Virus record (IMG/VR): IMGVR_UViG_3300037574_000317
Location: 1-21,603 of that record
Strand: one strand, 5' to 3'
DNA: 21,603 nt
From: a virus
The notes below the pieces were generated by a model. It did not search any database and was not told where the DNA came from. It worked only from the letters and a program-made list of their open reading frames with translations. This document shows, piece by piece, positions 7,513-16,339 of the stretch. The position numbers and the translations under genes are program-made. Positions within the stretch are counted from its first letter, which is position 1. Each line of letters opens with the position of its first letter.

Positions 7513-8015
7513 CCGTTGGCCCTCTTCATGGCTTTCGTCTGGAGGCCCAACGCCTTCAGGTGACGAACAACGGACCGTTCGGAAATGCCAAGCCGCCGCG
7601 CCAGCTCGGCTCCGCTGATGTCATTCGTGAAGGCCGCTTTGACCCTTGCGAGTTCGTCAGCGCCTCCATTTTTCATGTGAGTTTCCGAGCGGGAGAAATG
7701 CAGCCCCTGCGAGGACGCATCGGCATAGACCTGGTGGATCTTGACGTTGAGAAGAGAGGAAATCTCTTCCGCGGTCATGCCAGCGTTATAGTGTTTCGCG
7801 ACCGCAGCGCGCCGTTTCTGAACCCTCTCGGATCGACCTTTCGAGGCTGCGCTACCGGCCCATCTGGTCTTCTCGACATCTTTCGAAACGAGGTGTTTTC
7901 CGTCCCACTCATACCCAGGATGCCAGGTCGCGCCGTTCGCGCATTTGGTGACGCCTTGTTTTTCGATATGCTGGTCGATCAGGGCCCGCTCTGCGGCTGT
8001 GATGATGTCCGTCAT
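7509..8015 (-). CDS. Protein with two helix-turn-helix segments
   Basis: The protein has 168 residues. A first HTH-like segment covers about residues 80-105 (MTAEEISSLLNVKIHQVYAD). A second, stronger one covers about 132-158 (ISGAELARRLGISERSVVRH). The N-terminal part contains GATWHPGYEWDGKHLVS and a basic stretch. It is probably a DNA-binding regulator or a recruiter for the neighbouring methyltransferase, whose stop overlaps its start by four bases (8012-8015). Target and partner are unknown. Confidence 0.7.
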   Translation of the reverse strand: MTDIITAAERALIDQHIEKQGVTKCANGATWHPGYEWDGKHLVSKDVEKTRWAGSAASKGRSERVQKRRAAVAKHYNAGMTAEEISSLLNVKIHQVYADASSQGLHFSRSETHMKNGGADELARVKAAFTNDISGAELARRLGISERSVVRHLKALGLQTKAMKRANG

Positions 8016-9169
8016 AGCAGCGACCCTTGAACGATTTTCCCTTGCTCATCTTTTTGAACACCTTGGTCGCGCTCGATCCTTTGGAGTGCGAGGTGCGCAT
8101 AGTCAGGGTTCAGTTCGATCAGGGTGGCGTCCATTTGCATCCGGTCGGCCACCAGCCCGGTTGTTCCAGCGCCGCCGAACGGATCAAGGACGGCACCACC
8201 AGGCGGGCACCCGGCAGCGAGGCAACGCTCAACCAACTCGGGAGGAAAGGTCGCAAAGTGCGCGTCTTTGAATGGTTTGGTGGCGATCTTCCAGACCTGG
8301 ACCGGGGCTGGTTCATAGTTGCGAAGATTGCGGCCGTTTTCCTGCTGCTCTTCTTTCGACATCTGGTCCCAGCGCTCGTTGAAACCGACATGACGCCGAC
8401 CGTGGCCGCGCTGCTTATTTCCCACAACGCTTCTTTTTCCCATTTCTGAATTGTTGGTGCGGCCGCAGGTGTATGCTCCACCTCGGAAGATCTTTGCATC
8501 TTCGTCACTTGCTCGACCCTGACGCACCGCCTCGCGATCGTAGAGATAGCGCGGGGCCTTGGTGAACATGAAAATCTTCTCATGCGCGGTTGCGGGCCGG
8601 TCCCGGATGCTTTCCGGCATCGGGTTCGGCTTGGCCCAGATGATTTCAGACCGGACCCACCAGCCCCATTCCTGCATTGCGATGGCGAAACGGTTGGGCA
8701 CCATGCACAGGTCTTTGGGTTTGAGATAGCCGCCAGAAATTACACGGCCTTTATGTGCAGCCTGCCCATTGGAGCCCTTGTTATTTGTCCGCCCGCGCCG
8801 ATCCTGGGCTTCATGATCAGGTGAAAAGATTGGACCCACCGTGGAGAAATGTTTGTCGCGGAACGTCCGGTCATCACCTCCGGCAGCCTTTGTGTCGGCA
8901 GCACTTCTTCCGTTCGGCGTGGTCGCATAGCAATCGCCATAATTGACCCAGAGCGTACCTGTGTCCTTGAGAACGCGATGGATCTCAGCAAAGACGGTCA
9001 ACATCACATCCAGGTGCTCAGCCAGCGTGGGTTCCAAACCGATCTGGCCTTCAACACCATAGTCGCGAAGCCCCCAATAGGGCGGCGACGTGACCACGCA
9101 ATCAAAAGTCTCGTCAGGAATTTCGCGCAGGCGATCCATAACGTCGCCAATGAGAACAATTACCGTCAT
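8012..9169 (-). CDS. Phage DNA methyltransferase (N4-cytosine/N6-adenine, beta-class order)
   Basis: This 385-residue protein is an S-adenosylmethionine-dependent DNA amino-methyltransferase. Catalytic motif IV is TSPPYW at residues 27-32. The SAM-binding motif I, DPFGGAGTTG, lies at about 329-338. Motif IV before motif I with a long central target-recognition region (about 90-300) is the beta-class arrangement found in many N4-C and N6-A enzymes. The target sequence cannot be read from the protein. No cognate restriction endonuclease lies beside it, so it is an orphan enzyme that probably protects phage DNA from host restriction or regulates the phage. It starts in an ATGA overlap with the gene at 9166-9633. 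Confidence 0.92.
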   Translation of the reverse strand: MTVIVLIGDVMDRLREIPDETFDCVVTSPPYWGLRDYGVEGQIGLEPTLAEHLDVMLTVFAEIHRVLKDTGTLWVNYGDCYATTPNGRSAADTKAAGGDDRTFRDKHFSTVGPIFSPDHEAQDRRGRTNNKGSNGQAAHKGRVISGGYLKPKDLCMVPNRFAIAMQEWGWWVRSEIIWAKPNPMPESIRDRPATAHEKIFMFTKAPRYLYDREAVRQGRASDEDAKIFRGGAYTCGRTNNSEMGKRSVVGNKQRGHGRRHVGFNERWDQMSKEEQQENGRNLRNYEPAPVQVWKIATKPFKDAHFATFPPELVERCLAAGCPPGGAVLDPFGGAGTTGLVADRMQMDATLIELNPDYAHLALQRIERDQGVQKDEQGKIVQGSLL

Positions 9170-9633
9170 ACCAAGGACACCCGAAGCGGGGTTTGACCGT
9201 TCTCGTGCCTCTGCAGGGCGATCTCAGCGGTGCGAATAGGTTCCATCTCGGTCTTGATGCGCGCAGCAATCTGCCCAGGCAGAGGTTTCCTTGCGCAGTT
9301 CGGGTTGTTCGGGCCGATCCACCAAATGCAGGCATCGTGCAATGCCCACTCCGGAGGGTTGCCGATAATTTCCAGCCAGTCGTTGGCGACATCGGCGGCC
9401 TGCCCCGCTGGCAATGGGCTGACGAAATAATGGTTCAGCAATGACACGACCCGCTTTGCAACAGTCCGATCACAGGCGGGTTCACTCGCCACCACCAGAA
9501 CTGCCTTTACCTGTTCAGCCTCAGCTGCGTCGGCGAAGGGCAGCGTCAAGAAATGCGTCTGCTTGTGCCTGATGGACGTTACCGCCAGCCGGGCCGCGCC
9601 GAGGGTTGTGGGGTGAGATATTTCCGTTGTCAT
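9166..9633 (-). CDS. Hypothetical protein of the replication operon
   Basis: This 155-residue protein starts at 9633, where GGAGG lies six bases before the ATG, and ends in an ATGA overlap with the methyltransferase. Its first 113 bases lie inside the end of the initiator gene in another frame. I recognise no domain. The C-terminal half is Trp- and Pro-rich (WLEIIGNPPEWALHDACIWW). Position directly after the initiator suggests a replication accessory role, which is inference. Confidence 0.65.
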   Translation of the reverse strand: MTTEISHPTTLGAARLAVTSIRHKQTHFLTLPFADAAEAEQVKAVLVVASEPACDRTVAKRVVSLLNHYFVSPLPAGQAADVANDWLEIIGNPPEWALHDACIWWIGPNNPNCARKPLPGQIAARIKTEMEPIRTAEIALQRHENGQTPLRVSLV

Positions 9634-10381
9634 CGACGGCCTCCATCTTCGGGGTTCTGCAGTTGCGCATCCAGTTGCGCCAGGTCGCTTTCCAGTCGGC
9701 TTTCCGACCAGGTGCGCCCGGTTTCGCTATCCAGTAATCCTTGAACTTCTCGGCCTCGCTCCGAACCGCATCGACCGACCACCCTTCGGCTACGGCCCAA
9801 TCGCCCCAATCCTTTGGCAGTTGCCAATCGTCCGGTAGCCTTGTGCCGCGAGGACTTGCCTTGGGTGAGGAAGTGGGTTGCGAAGGAACAGCGAGGGCGA
9901 GTTGTTGGGTAGGCGCGGAAGCGCCGTCCCCACCCTGAATTTCATCAGGTATTGAATCTATATTAGGTTTGTCCCGCTGCTGTCCCGCTGCTGTCCCACC
10001 GGTGTCCCGCTGCTGTCCCGCATCGTGTCCCGATGCTGTCCCATTATAGTTTGGAGTGTTTTGGATTTCGTCGTAATCACAGACGGTTATGATGTTCCCA
10101 CCTGTCCCGCTTTCGATTTTGATTATGTCCCGCTTTTCGAGACGCTTGAGAAACCTATCGACCGTCGACTTTGACCAATCCCAGGCTTCGGCCATAAAGC
10201 GAACAGAGACAAAAAGCTGTCCTCGATCAGTGTGTGCGGTCGTGTTCAGGATCCGGCGTTCGCGAGGTTTGTATGAAGCCTCCATCACGATCCAGATGTA
10301 GGCCTCTCGCTCAGTGAGCGGCTGGGACTTGAAAGCTGGATCTTTCCAGATGGTCCTCGCGATATTGACCGTCCCACTCAT
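9521..10381 (-). CDS. Lambda-O-like replication initiator (winged helix plus DnaT-like C-terminus)
   Basis: The start at 10381 is chosen because its ATG overlaps the helicase TGA (ATGA), giving 286 residues beginning MSGTVNIARTIWKDPAFK. A winged-helix domain lies at about residues 20-90 (DRGQLFVSVRFMAEAWDWSK, then STVDRFLKRLEKRDII). A low-complexity linker of Gly, Gln, Arg and Asp follows (about 112-140). A Trp-rich C-terminal domain (LPDDWQLPKDWGDW ... FKDYWIAKPG ... ATWRNWMRN) resembles the DnaT-like/replisome-organiser ends of phage replication proteins. The DNA for the linker holds seven TGTCCC iterons. By analogy with lambda O, the N-terminus would bind these and the C-terminus would load the helicase. 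The gene ends within the next one by 113 bases. Confidence 0.8.
   Translation of the reverse strand: MSGTVNIARTIWKDPAFKSQPLTEREAYIWIVMEASYKPRERRILNTTAHTDRGQLFVSVRFMAEAWDWSKSTVDRFLKRLEKRDIIKIESGTGGNIITVCDYDEIQNTPNYNGTASGHDAGQQRDTGGTAAGQQRDKPNIDSIPDEIQGGDGASAPTQQLALAVPSQPTSSPKASPRGTRLPDDWQLPKDWGDWAVAEGWSVDAVRSEAEKFKDYWIAKPGAPGRKADWKATWRNWMRNCRTPKMEAVDDNGNISPHNPRRGPAGGNVHQAQADAFLDAALRRRS
9937..10136. other. Putative phage replication origin inside the initiator gene
   Basis: The iteron block is flanked by AT-rich DNA: 9939-9970 (with TATTGAATCTATATTAGG) and 10041-10080 (with CATTATAGTTTGGAGTG). Iterons plus an AT-rich unwinding region in the linker part of a winged-helix initiator gene is the organisation of lambda ori within gene O. 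The outlying copies at 10103 and 10126 lie 66 and 89 bases beyond the last core repeat, close to the same helical phase. Origin function is inferred from structure and location and is not demonstrated. Confidence 0.65.
9970..10047. repeat. Seven iterons of TGTCCC(GCTGC) at 11-12 bp spacing
   Basis: TGTCCC begins at 9970, 9981, 9992, 10003, 10014, 10026 and 10037, giving spacings of 11, 11, 11, 11, 12 and 11. The commonest unit is TGTCCCGCTGC. Because 11 is not a multiple of three, successive units are read in different frames of the initiator gene, so the regularity is at DNA level, not protein level. One unit per helical turn puts every copy on the same face of DNA. Two further TGTCCCGCTTT copies occur at 10103-10113 and 10126-10136. 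Confidence 0.85.
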
Positions 10382-11823
10382 ATCAGTCCATCCGCGACAT
10401 GGGACCGGTCGTCGTAGACGTTCGACGTCGCCAGATCGACATAAAGGGGAACGGTTTTCAGGGGGCCAGAACGCTGCTTGGCGATGATCACGTCCATCTT
10501 GTCGTGGCAACGCTCTAGCGCTGCGCGCAGGTCGGCTTCCTTCTCGACATCACCGCCGCCGAGGTTGTTCAGGCGCCGCTCAAGGTAATAGGCCTCGCGA
10601 TAGGTGAACATCACAACATCAGCGTCTTCTTCCAGCTTCCCGGACTCCCTGAGATCAGCCAGCATCGGCGTGGGAGGATCCCGCTGTTCGACCTGTCGGC
10701 TCAGCTGGGCCAGGGCCACGACCGGCACGTTCATCTCGGTCGCAAGGCTCTTGCAGAGGTCGGACGCCTCGGACACGCGGTCGTAGGTGGACTTTGCTCG
10801 GGATGACTGGATCAGTTGCAGGTAATCGAGGACGATCAGGCCCAACGGACATGCGCTATCGTCCATGCGCTGTTTCGCGCGCTTCGCCGCCGCTCGTAGC
10901 CGGGACACCTCGCGCACATCGCGCTCACCCATGTAGATCGGCAAGGACTCCTGCCGCTTGCTCTCTTCGACAAGGGCGCGCATTTCGGCCTCGCTCAAGT
11001 CACCCTTGAGCATCCGATTGTAAGGGATCGTCGCCTTCCGCCGCGCAAGCCCCAAAGACAGGAACCGCGTGGCGACCGCTTCAGCGTTCATTTCCAGTGA
11101 TGGAAAGAACACGCCAGTGCCAGCTTCGGCCGCGTTGAAGATGAAGTTCTGGGCCAACGTGGTCTTACCCATCGAAGGCCTGGCCCCGATCAGGATCATG
11201 TCGCCGCCGCGCATCGTGCCAATGGCGGCGTCCAGCCGACCGAGGCCGGTCGGAACGCCAGGCGGGCTCACACCCTGGTAGGCATCATTGATCTGCTGCA
11301 CGGCGCCGATGATGGCGCTCAGGTGGGACCGGATCAGGGGCTTCACGCTGGTCTTGTTCAGAAGGCCCCCCGCGGCGGTTTCGACGTCGGTTGCAATTGC
11401 CGCAGCGGCATCCCCGCCTTCGATCCGCAGTCGGGCATCATCAAACGACGCAAGCATCTGTCGCTTGGCCGACAGGTCCGAAATAATCGAAGCGTAATCG
11501 ACAACTGCAAACGAACTGATGGCAGCCCCGGCAAGACGCACGAGATACTTCGGTCCGCCCAGCTCAGCCAGGCCTTCATCGTTTTGCATCGCGGCTTTCA
11601 AGGTCACCGGAGACGCCAGCTGACCGGCGTCGATCCGCTCCTTGATCTTGTCGAAAATCCGCTGGTGAACCGGGTCGTAGAAGTCCGACGTGTCGATGAC
11701 CCCCAGAACTCTGGAATAGGTCTCGTTGTTCGTCAGCAAAGCCCCCAGCAACTGCTGCTCGGCTTCGGGGCTGCTCGTGCAAGACGACAGGTCTTTCTGG
11801 GCTAGGCTATTGATCTCTGGCAT
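10378..11823 (-). CDS. dnaB: Replicative DNA helicase, DnaB family
   Basis: The product starting at 11823 has 481 residues, a normal DnaB length. The N-terminal helical domain (about 15-115) begins with the family pattern PEAEQQLLGALL. The RecA-like domain has Walker A GARPSMGKTT at about 213-222, Walker B LIVLDYLQLI at 329-338, and the QLSRQVEQR motif at 373-381. It forms a hexameric 5'-3' helicase at the fork. The frame is open further upstream, but those residues overlap the RuvC-like gene and look spurious; an ATG three codons earlier (11832) is possible. Having its own DnaB, the phage need not hijack the host helicase. The initiator gene follows with an ATGA overlap. Confidence 0.95.
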   Translation of the reverse strand: MPEINSLAQKDLSSCTSSPEAEQQLLGALLTNNETYSRVLGVIDTSDFYDPVHQRIFDKIKERIDAGQLASPVTLKAAMQNDEGLAELGGPKYLVRLAGAAISSFAVVDYASIISDLSAKRQMLASFDDARLRIEGGDAAAAIATDVETAAGGLLNKTSVKPLIRSHLSAIIGAVQQINDAYQGVSPPGVPTGLGRLDAAIGTMRGGDMILIGARPSMGKTTLAQNFIFNAAEAGTGVFFPSLEMNAEAVATRFLSLGLARRKATIPYNRMLKGDLSEAEMRALVEESKRQESLPIYMGERDVREVSRLRAAAKRAKQRMDDSACPLGLIVLDYLQLIQSSRAKSTYDRVSEASDLCKSLATEMNVPVVALAQLSRQVEQRDPPTPMLADLRESGKLEEDADVVMFTYREAYYLERRLNNLGGGDVEKEADLRAALERCHDKMDVIIAKQRSGPLKTVPLYVDLATSNVYDDRSHVADGLI

Positions 11824-12331
11824 GAAGTTCATCACCGAATAGGCCTGGGACCATCGAGACCCCGAACAGACGCACGCGGCCCAAGTGCCAAGCCGCCGCC
11901 GCATCGCTTTCATCGAAGTTGGCAACCTTCCATCCGAGGCGCTTGCAGGCCTCGAAGACCCGCGGTTTAGCCATGTCGGTGCGCAGGCTGCGCTCACCGA
12001 TCAGATATTCACGAATGTCACCGACGGAATATTCAGCAACCTTGACGCCCTTCATCCGGGCCACCCCGAAAATGCAGCCACGGTAACCGAAGGCCTGCTG
12101 CACGCGGGCTTCCTTTCCAGCGACACCAGCGGCAATCCCCTTTTCGATCACCACGGCATCAGGCTTCCACTTGTCGATCAGTCGCGAGGTCATGCGAAGC
12201 GCTTGGCAGAACCGGATCTCTTGCGGATCATTCGGCTCTGCCAAGATCTCCGTGTGGCAGGCAGGCGCACCACGAACGTCGCCAAAAGCAACGCCCGTGA
12301 CACGGCCCATATCGAAAGCCAGCAACTTCAC
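11807..12331 (-). CDS. RuvC-like Holliday-junction resolvase
   Basis: This 174-residue protein has the RNase-H-fold resolvase pattern. LLAFDMGRVTGVAFGD carries the first catalytic Asp7, AVVIEKG carries Glu63, and NFDESDAAAAWHL carries the C-terminal acidic pair Asp140/Asp143. These positions match RuvC-family proteins found in phages of alphaproteobacteria. It would resolve four-way junctions or branched DNA made during phage replication and RecET-type recombination, before packaging. It starts in a four-base overlap with the upstream gene and overlaps the helicase gene by 17 bases. Confidence 0.87.
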   Translation of the reverse strand: MKLLAFDMGRVTGVAFGDVRGAPACHTEILAEPNDPQEIRFCQALRMTSRLIDKWKPDAVVIEKGIAAGVAGKEARVQQAFGYRGCIFGVARMKGVKVAEYSVGDIREYLIGERSLRTDMAKPRVFEACKRLGWKVANFDESDAAAAWHLGRVRLFGVSMVPGLFGDELHARDQ

Positions 12332-14327: not shown

Positions 14328-15374
14328 ATGCGCGATCACTTCGATCACGAGATCAGGACGCTAGAGCCTGACGAACTGATTACCGAGCCCGGTTTCTACA
14401 ACATTCCGATGGAGAGACACCACAACCAGCCCTGTGATGGCTACAGCGTGACAAGCTCGGTGCTGCGGACAGTCGAGTTGAACAGCCCCGCCGATCTCTG
14501 GCTCCGGCACCCGGACAATCCCGACCGCGAAGTCGAGGACGACAAGACCGCGTTTCGGCTTGGCAGGGTCATGGCCGCATACATCGAACGCGGACCCGAA
14601 GGCATGGAGGAATTTGTAAGGATCCTCCCTTCTGCTCCAGCTGCCATGTCCGTCCCGGAAATGATGAAACTGGCGAAGTCTGGCGGAGTAAGGCCGAAAG
14701 CGCCACCTCAGCGCCCGACCTTCGAACAGATCGTCCGGTATGTGGAAGGCAACCCGACACCTGCCGGGGCGCGCGCTGTCGAATACTGGTACGACGTCGA
14801 CAGAGATCCCAGGGAAAAAGTTTCCGAAAAAGAGTGGGAGATGATCGCAGGTATGGGCCGGTCTTTAGCCGCGGACCCCGCAGCCTGCGCTGCGCTTGGC
14901 GGTATTCCTGAAATCACGATGGCATGGCAGGATGATCGCACAGGCATCTGGTGCCTCGCTCGGCCTGACCAGATTTCCTTCTCAGGCATGATCTCCGACT
15001 ACAAGAAGGTCAACACTCAAGGTCGACCGTTCAACGGCTGGCTGGTCGACGGCCGGATTACCCAGCACGGCTACGACATGCAAATGGCCTTCGCGGCCAC
15101 GGGCTTCGAAACATTGACCAGAAACAAGCCCGATCAGGTTGGTCTGGTGTTCCAGTGTGATGCGAAGCCTCACCATGTCATCCTGCGCGAGATCGAGGAA
15201 GAGGATCTGCGCATTGGTGAGTTCCGAAACAATCGCGCGCTCCAGACCATCAGCAACTGCATTGCCAGTGGAGATTGGCCCGGTCCCGGCGAACACGTCG
15301 AAGCCTATCGGCGCAACAAGGCGCAGCGCGAACGGCTGCTTGAAGAAATGAACTTTGCGGGAGTTGCACCATGA
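14328..15374 (+). CDS. RecE-like PD-(D/E)XK exonuclease
   Basis: This 348-residue protein precedes a RecT gene and has the core of a RecB/RecE-type nuclease. Glu195 is in IPEITMAW, Asp214 in LARPDQIS, and Asp224-x-Lys226 in ISDYKKV, followed by HGYDMQMAF, the helix that carries the conserved Gln/Tyr of this fold. The N-terminus (PGFYNIPMERHH ... YSVTSSVLRTV ... SPADLWLRHP) matches the usual opening of phage exonuclease-VIII-like proteins. The enzyme would degrade one strand of duplex DNA 5'-3' to expose single strands for RecT. GGAG lies before the start, and the stop overlaps the RecT start (ATGA). Confidence 0.87.
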   Translation: MRDHFDHEIRTLEPDELITEPGFYNIPMERHHNQPCDGYSVTSSVLRTVELNSPADLWLRHPDNPDREVEDDKTAFRLGRVMAAYIERGPEGMEEFVRILPSAPAAMSVPEMMKLAKSGGVRPKAPPQRPTFEQIVRYVEGNPTPAGARAVEYWYDVDRDPREKVSEKEWEMIAGMGRSLAADPAACAALGGIPEITMAWQDDRTGIWCLARPDQISFSGMISDYKKVNTQGRPFNGWLVDGRITQHGYDMQMAFAATGFETLTRNKPDQVGLVFQCDAKPHHVILREIEEEDLRIGEFRNNRALQTISNCIASGDWPGPGEHVEAYRRNKAQRERLLEEMNFAGVAP

Positions 15375-16339
15375 ACGAACAGACCAACCTTCGACCGACC
15401 ACGAACATTCACGTTGCCAAGGAGGTTGAGGGCATCGCCAGTATCGACCCCGGTCTTGGCGCGTACCAGTTCGAGAACCTTGGCGAACTGGTGCAGTTTT
15501 CGGACCTGATGTCGAAGGCCGACGTCATGCTGCCGCCGCACCTGCGCAACAAGCCTGCAATCTGCCTCGCGGTCACCATGCGCGCGATACAGTGGAAGGT
15601 CGATCCCTTCGCGCTGGCAATGGAGACCTATCAGGCCAAGGACGGTGGGCCCATCGGCTATCAGGCGAAGGTGTTTGTGTCCGCTCTCGAGGCTTGTGCC
15701 GGCATTCAGCTGAATTACGAGTACGAGGGCAATTTCACCATCACCAACGAACCGGCCAAGAGTTCCAAGGGCAACATCGTTGCGCAACGTGCGGCAGTCG
15801 GAGATCGGCGCTGCATCGCATGGGTCGAATTGAAGGGGCGCCGGTTCGAATACGTCAGCCCCCGCCTTGATGAAATCACCGTCAAGAACTCACCGCTCTG
15901 GCACCTGGACCCCGATCAGCAACTTACCTATTACGCTGCGCGCGGTTGGGTGCGGCGCCACAAACCCAGCGTGATGATGGGCGCCTATTCGGCTGATGAA
16001 GTCGAAAGCATGGAGCCAATGCGCGACGTCACGCCGAAGCGTGGGGCTTTCGCTCAGTTGGCGGCGGACGCGCGCCACGCCGCTGCTGAGGCGACCGATG
16101 AAGATGAAGCCCGACCGGAAGGCGAGACCTCGCCGGAAGACGATCAAAGCGGCACGAATACGCAGGTCGAAGAGCCCGACGTAGATACAGAATCGCCGGC
16201 CTACCTGAACGGTGTCGAGGCTCGGGAAGGTGGCCTGTCGCGAGGCGATTGCCCCTACCCCAAAGACCCCGTTTCCGCCGCCAACTGGTTCGCCGGGTGG
16301 GATTCCGTCGAAAGTGACAGCAGCGAGGACTCTGAGTGA
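15371..16339 (+). CDS. recT: RecT single-strand annealing protein with C-terminal RMF/CrpP-like domain
   Basis: Residues 40-215 are a RecT core: IQWKVDPFALAMETYQ, GPIGYQAKVFVSAL, VKNSPLWHLDPDQQLTYYAA, and a MMGAYSADE end. RecT coats single strands made by the partner exonuclease and anneals homologous DNA. An acidic linker (240-275) follows. Residues 277-312 (AYLNGVEAREGG ... CPYPKD ... NWFAGW) keep the spacing of ribosome modulation factor/CrpP-like domains: Gly-x2-Ala, Gly, Cys294-Pro-Tyr296, and Trp306-x2-Gly-Trp310. RecT proteins are usually about 270-310 residues and normally lack this tail. The function of the extra domain is unknown. Confidence 0.92.
   Translation: MNEQTNLRPTTNIHVAKEVEGIASIDPGLGAYQFENLGELVQFSDLMSKADVMLPPHLRNKPAICLAVTMRAIQWKVDPFALAMETYQAKDGGPIGYQAKVFVSALEACAGIQLNYEYEGNFTITNEPAKSSKGNIVAQRAAVGDRRCIAWVELKGRRFEYVSPRLDEITVKNSPLWHLDPDQQLTYYAARGWVRRHKPSVMMGAYSADEVESMEPMRDVTPKRGAFAQLAADARHAAAEATDEDEARPEGETSPEDDQSGTNTQVEEPDVDTESPAYLNGVEAREGGLSRGDCPYPKDPVSAANWFAGWDSVESDSSEDSE

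Follow-up and report, generated by a model that had tools for sequence, protein, structure and literature searches.

Iteron array inside the gene of a predicted DnaD-like phage initiator, with sites that co-vary with the encoded winged helix

The window analysed here, i.e. the whole 21,603-nucleotide stretch of IMG/VR virus record IMGVR_UViG_3300037574_000317, carries on its minus strand an initiator gene that is composed of three parts: an N-terminal winged helix, a linker encoded by iterons, and a C-terminal domain of the primosomal type (Table 1). As the earlier note had stated, the phage supplies its own DnaB, the gene for which lies directly upstream and overlaps the start of the initiator gene by 4 nt. 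A DNA N6/N4 methyltransferase gene (8012-9169) is found shortly downstream of the initiator. Elsewhere in the window, positions 15371-16339 encode a RecT-like annealing protein with a C-terminal match to the family of ribosome modulation factors (PF04957, E 1e-5, slightly under the curated cut-off), an odd fusion.

Table 1. Positions of the initiator gene, its domains, the iterons and neighboring elements in the window
Feature	Position	Strand	Basis or remark
DnaB-type replicative helicase of the phage	10378-11922	minus	PF03796 1e-69, PF00772 1e-24
Initiator gene	9521-10381	minus	ORF; ATG at 10381, stop at 9521, 286 aa
Winged-helix DNA-binding domain, residues 1-107	10061-10381	minus	AlphaFold2 model and Foldseek
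V60 codon, fourth specificity position, predicted start of HTH helix 2	10202-10204	minus	co-variation and model
Predicted recognition helix, residues 71-83, with specificity residues K71, S72, D75	10133-10171	minus	model; top co-variation with iteron motif
Iteron 1 (GGGACA), wing cluster	10126-10131	minus	exact word
Iteron 2, wing cluster	10103-10108	minus	exact word; the middle site of many relatives is missing in the window
Spacer between clusters, partly AT-rich	10043-10102		second A+T peak in homologs
Iteron 3, linker cluster	10037-10042	minus	exact word; 66 bp from site 2
Iteron 4	10026-10031	minus	exact word
Iteron 5	10014-10019	minus	exact word
Iteron 6	10003-10008	minus	exact word
Iteron 7	9992-9997	minus	exact word
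Iteron 8	9981-9986	minus	exact word
Iteron 9	9970-9975	minus	exact word
AT-rich element directly after last iteron, candidate unwinding element	9940-9969		A+T excess conserved in homologs
C-terminal domain (RGTRLPxDW ... KFKDYWIA ... WxATWRNW)	9596-9889	minus	alignment of homologs, model, Foldseek

In comparisons with PHROG profiles, residues 1-150 of the initiator matched phrog_35955 (7e-61) and the DnaD-like helicase loader phrog_2514 (6.8e-16), and the C-terminal part matched the primosomal phrog_3992 (5e-21). The Pfam matches were to winged-helix families and all were weak. The AlphaFold2 model of residues 1-118 is confident (mean pLDDT 88) and places a helix at residues 60-67, the recognition helix at 71-83, and wing strands at 87-91 and 96-100. 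When the modelled N-domain was compared with viral structures using Foldseek, the matches were replisome organizers (E 8e-10 to about 1e-9); the matches in the PDB were weak ones to wHTH proteins (CAP/CodY/MarR, E>0.01). The model of the C-terminal domain is modest (pLDDT 72), and its best PDB match, a weak one (Foldseek E 1.9), is the C-terminal domain of DnaT (2ru8). PF07261, the DnaD/DnaB_2 helicase-loader C-domain, was absent from the window initiator in the Pfam search and present in PVL orf46 and A118 gp49. The homology of the N-domain can be followed through Vibrio phage 1.064 to Staphylococcus PVL orf46 and Listeria A118 gp49, and Vibrio phages connect it in this way to the replisome organizers that phages of Staphylococcus, Bacillus, Listeria and Lactobacillus encode. 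By sequence and predicted fold, the window initiator is classified as a DnaD-like phage replisome organizer.

The initiator gene contains nine GGGACA sites (TGTCCC on the plus strand), at exactly the starts that had been claimed for them. In gene coordinates, two sites are located under wing-coding DNA (nt 250 and 273) and seven in the linker at an 11/12-bp pitch (nt 339, 350, 362, 373, 384, 395 and 406). TGTCCC has only 5 further copies elsewhere in the 21.6 kb, so its count for the window as a whole is ordinary and its clustering is not. Comparison with relatives indicates that the iteron is a 7-bp non-palindromic sequence, CGNNNCA, with CGGGACA as the version in the window. The codon phases of the nine sites, in the same order, are 1, 0, 0, 2, 2, 1, 0, 2 and 1, and the hexamer encodes RD, GT or GQ/GH depending on the phase. 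Synonymous recoding of the initiator with the codon usage of the window gave on average 1.0 GGGACA and at most 5, and nine were reached in 0 of 20,000 recodings. Because the sites occupy all three codon phases and no synonymous recoding reaches nine, selection in the array acts on DNA, in agreement with the earlier proposal that an 11-bp period breaks the codon frame.

Homologs were fetched from viral and bacterial genome collections with the N-terminal domain alone (the first ~83 residues), the array playing no part in the search, which yielded 150 unique genes, 116 of them non-redundant. Among the latter, 102 beat 99% of 200 protein-preserving shuffles and 14 fell short of the 1% synonymous null; adjacent pairs of sites at 11/12 bp averaged 3.47 in the homologs and 0.29 in the shuffles. 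GT dipeptides of the homologs are coded by GGGACA in 148 of 168 cases in the array zone versus 5 of 46 elsewhere. The motif derived from the linker recurs in the wing DNA of the same gene in 95 of 105 genes, compared with 11.7% for motifs taken from other genes. Across the homologs, 732 sites lie on the same strand and 47 on the opposite one, the spacings are dominated by 11 (282 cases), 12 (122), 66 (50) and 23 bp (40), and the three codon phases are used by 356, 206 and 170 sites.

These data bear on the possibility that the repeats reflect a low-complexity linker selected at the protein level, built from an 11-residue GTAAGQQRDxx repeat, with the DNA periodicity as a mere by-product. A peptide repeat of this type is conserved among the GGGACA members, and an 11-residue repeat would likewise yield an 11-bp-related DNA pattern. 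However, the synonymous nulls reject this explanation by a wide margin, both for the window and for the homologs, and spacings of 11 and 12 bp are mixed, so the frame shifts inside single arrays. Moreover, the encoded dipeptides switch together between relatives (GT/GQ/RD, DT/IQ/RY, DA/TQ/RR and ET/KQ/RN), because the 11/12-bp pitch rotates the reading frame; such a change of all three in concert is what one expects only when the unit is a DNA word, and it excludes a purely protein-level explanation. We therefore regard a protein-level origin of the array as barely credible.

Nearly all of the 150 unique homologs share the wing-plus-linker arrangement of the sites. Most members with GGGACA have 2-3 wing sites, spaced by 11/12 or 23 bp, followed by a gap of usually 66 bp and 3-6 linker sites at 11/12 bp. 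Accordingly, the two wing sites of the window, which the earlier note had set apart as outliers, belong to a cluster found in most relatives. The core motif differs from gene to gene (GGGAC, GACGC, GATAC, GAAAC, GAGAC, GGGGC and others), and homologs without GGGACA fill the same layout with a different word (CGATACA, CGACGCA, CGAAACA, CGAGACA, CGGCACA, CGGGGCA and others). In the cultured Sulfitobacter phage pCB2047-A, the product of SUAG_00025, annotated in its record only as a hypothetical protein, is 50% identical to the window initiator, and its gene contains an array of CGGGACA with spacings of 11 and 12, then 66, then 22, 11, 11 and 11 bp. In S. aureus phage PVL, orf46 carries ACATCA at nt 276 and again at nt 344-410 in seven 11-bp steps; matches in a scan of Firmicutes for relatives were mostly identical copies of PVL. 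Significant arrays were also present in Bacillus phage Page, Lactobacillus AT3, Listeria A118 gp49, Cronobacter ENT47670 and Pseudomonas KLEP17-4. Exact-word arrays were not significant in phi575, 279BB001, A403, Shewanella 3/49 and two Vibrio phages, and Vibrio 1.064 had no significant exact-word array. Homologous initiators without repeats had been named beforehand as the observation that would count against the proposal; close relatives without GGGACA bear a different repeat in the same place, whereas some distant relatives have no significant array. Some genes depart from the usual numbers: extra clusters of sites occur further downstream in the initiator genes of L350 and L356, the initiator gene of L610 has up to twelve sites, and in three replisome-organizer-like genes (L061, L103 and L018) the hexamer is in the opposite orientation (VPQLSPNCPPTVPQLSGHCP-type linkers) at an 11-bp pitch.

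Several candidates were set aside. F10, LESphi2 and Fishburne, considered as array-bearing relatives, showed no significant array; their similarity was either distant or confined mostly to the C-terminal domain. The Rep protein of pUSA03, considered as a possible phage-type hybrid for which replication has been tested, has an N-domain of the RepA_N type that places it outside the initiator family, and its gene has no significant 10-12 bp array. A search of viral contigs by pattern only (three GGGACA, with a reversed control) gave matches of mixed causes; among those listed were true arrays, protein repeats of the DVWDSVRDSV type at 12 bp, and GQGQGQ repeats at 6 bp. Its counts were discarded. 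In L024, L052, L057, L096 and L120, GGGACA recurs at strict multiples of 12 bp due to DSVRDSVWDSV repeats of an unrelated family, a false positive when arrays are sought. Another phage replication family, with a 'FMPLDVxRLRDSDL' N-terminus (L178, L190, L214, L222, L511 (CF140a) and others), has 6-bp GGGACA/GACAGG tandem repeats that encode GQGQGQ in the linker and possibly represents a different iteron pitch. At least CF140a and L195 also have the same 'RxSRLPEDW' C-terminal domain.

The predicted co-variation of the repeats with the winged helix was analysed and is strong. An aligned-residue scan for information on the motif, which set aside wing residues 92-93, themselves encoded by an iteron, was led by K71 (z 17.4), D75 (14.4), V60 (12.8) and S72 (7.8), with a median of 1.5 across all columns. 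These z values are based on automatic, uncorrected motif labels; for the tree, the held-out test and the within-cluster permutation, the labels of L437, L439, L368, L337, L338 and L332 were corrected by hand. The same four residues lead when labels are permuted inside sequence clusters. In pairs of matched identity, residue 71 differs in 75-87% of cases if the motifs differ and in 11-22% if they agree. In the AlphaFold2 model, residues 60, 71, 72 and 75 map to the starts of HTH helix 2 and the recognition helix. Of 66 genes with K or R at residue 71, 64 have G as the middle core base, and of 34 genes with E or D at this position, 24 have C. This pattern follows the familiar preferences of Lys/Arg for G and of Glu/Asp for C.

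Shared ancestry, i.e. a correlation that arises only from subfamilies that differ in everything, has to be weighed here. The tree of homologs, built from 70 columns, has few well-supported branches, which left 6 usable independent pairs, and no single pair test reached 0.05. Since the independent-pair tests are underpowered, the analysis turned to pairs of matched identity, permutation within clusters, and held-out genes. Even so, all tests of the independent pairs show differing residues that change in the expected direction, and an opposite pairing occurred only once in 200, in a single test. The other 70-odd columns, which have the same ancestry, reach z about 5 at most, and 44 motif changes are required on the best tree. 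Furthermore, the closest unlike pairs change just the specificity positions: L442 (GGGAC, V-K-S-D) and L443 (GGGGC, Q-K-S-D), which are 76% identical, and L431 (GAGAC, V-R-G-E) and L470 (GGGAC, V-K-G-E). The held-out set comprised 35 genes from genome searches, some of them known before, and 13 were within 0.55-0.90 identity to the training set. For these 13, a lookup of the four residues named the motif in 11 cases, compared with 7 for the nearest neighbor on the rest of the domain, and won all four disagreements between the two predictors; as the bracket was picked once identities were seen, 11 of 13 is indicative. Below 0.55 identity, the table fails for unseen residue combinations, and several of these held-out genes have strong arrays of new words. 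Taken together, we consider shared ancestry alone a quite improbable cause of the co-variation.

The composition around the array is consistent with the AT-rich flanks proposed earlier. A+T content is 70% at 9940-9959 and 60-65% at 10040-10079, compared with 41% for the whole window. An A+T excess (+0.22/+0.18) over the 40 bp that follow the last site is conserved in 105 homologs; A+T climbs again in the inter-cluster gap and is near the local mean elsewhere. Judged by composition, the AT-rich element of the origin-in-initiator layout is present.

Because the sequence of the sites co-varies with the winged-helix residues, we strongly infer that the iterons within the initiator gene are bound by its product and, by analogy with known systems, we infer that the region of the array is a replication origin; composition, gene order and precedent point to unwinding, helicase loading and origin function. 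In the mechanism that we propose with high confidence, the N-terminal winged helix of the DnaD-like replisome organizer would bind GGGACA, the core of CGGGACA, and several initiator molecules would line up on one DNA face at the 11-12 bp pitch. The adjoining AT-rich element (9940-9969) would then melt, and the C-terminal domain would help to place the phage's own DnaB.

The repeats might instead be operators through which the initiator regulates its own expression or copy number, with the true origin elsewhere. Iteron binding often also regulates initiators. At most, co-variation proves that the protein recognizes its cognate sites; it does not prove that they act as an origin. The array could serve to regulate the initiator gene, either in place of starting replication or in addition to it. 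Nevertheless, we find operators with an origin elsewhere unlikely. The array is located far inside the gene and is abutted by the conserved AT-rich element in 105 genes, no second array like that of the initiator was found in the whole record, and no sigma-70-like promoter was found at 9400-10700, although the latter is weak evidence. In addition, the precedents with the same layout are origins (PMC6316719, PMC5703833, PMC7466680). Another factor that could bind such sites is a partition protein, a repressor or a host protein, given that direct repeats also form centromere sites, as in the mycobacteriophage parS arrays near repA (PMC7157519). This is very improbable, as the sequence of the sites changes in step with the recognition helix encoded by the gene in which they lie.

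An origin placed inside the initiator gene is a known plan, found in lambda O, SPP1 gp38 and pSK41 RepA_N. The SPP1 protein gp38 binds to direct repeats that lie within its own gene, gene 38, and adjoin an AT-rich DUE; theta replication starting at oriL has been reconstituted (PMC6316719). The window shares with this system the direct repeats and AT-rich element within the initiator gene and a phage-encoded DnaB-type helicase (gp38 being compared by description; PMC6316719). SPP1 differs in having oriR as a second origin and gp39 as a separate loader; neither a second origin nor a separate loader was recognisable among the scanned genes of the 21.6-kb record, which is possibly a fragment. The winged-helix N-domain of pSK41 Rep binds Rep boxes that are central in rep, the linker encoded by the origin is dispensable for protein function, and both the NTD and CTD resemble DnaD (PMC5703833). 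The window initiator is similar to this RepA_N protein as a winged-helix initiator with sites central in its own gene that encode the linker (PMC5703833). However, there are four boxes in pSK41, the C-domain of its Rep interacts with DnaG, and the RepA_N Pfam domain PF06970, found in the Rep of pUSA03 for comparison, is absent from the window initiator. Lambdoid origins have iterons in the middle of gene O and an adjacent AT-rich region (PMC7466680), as observed here. In contrast to the nine 7-bp non-palindromic sites in two clusters of the window, lambda has 4 iterons (6 in Stx phages) with a longer dyad, and the window initiator matched O-like PHROG profiles only weakly (2e-5 to 5e-4). The earlier note had described a lambda-O-type origin with a DnaT-like winged-helix initiator. 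The repeats do encode the linker of a winged-helix initiator, but the protein appears DnaD-like and has more in common with SPP1 gp38 and plasmid RepA_N than with lambda O, and the site sequence varies among relatives.

The co-variation has a parallel in PLE satellites of Vibrio cholerae, in which the RepA_N domain co-varies with the origin and replication is restricted to cognate pairs (PMC8263062). As in the family described here, the DNA-binding domain of the PLE initiator RepA co-varies with its sites; unlike in the window, the PLE origin lies between genes and has three semi-palindromic iterons of ~30 bp, and the description used here gives no residue-level code (PMC8263062). A T5orf172 (GIY-YIG type) gene lies directly upstream of the initiator in Sulfitobacter pCB2047-A (L146:3462-4004) and Vibrio phage 1.276 (L519:574-1161). 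The origin-directed nuclease Odn of ICP1 is a RepA_N-like domain fused to T5orf172 (PMC8263062), which makes a link between T5orf172 and the origin worth checking.

In summary, the family-wide wing-plus-linker layout and the residue-level specificity code appear to be new; subscription journals and preprints aside, the literature searched gave no account of the alphaproteobacterial group, the wing-plus-linker array or the residue-level code. The members are probably self-specifying initiators, a reading in which we place moderate confidence: residues 60, 71, 72 and 75 would largely set the central triplet of CG-NNN-CA (K/R71 for middle G, E/D71 for middle C, Q60 for GGGGC), ~7 sites in three frames would be rewritten together per specificity change, and origin and initiator would form one mobile, fast-diversifying incompatibility unit common to phages of Proteobacteria and Firmicutes. 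With the protein and its binding sites in one gene, each sequenced member is a matched protein-DNA pair obtained without experiment, with over a hundred in the homolog set and probably thousands in databases, and a natural data set for the rules of winged-helix recognition is possible. The layout could also locate origins in many unannotated phages. It makes testable how an initiator and its whole site array shift specificity together under coding constraint, and whether the force behind this diversification is incompatibility, satellites or origin-directed nucleases.
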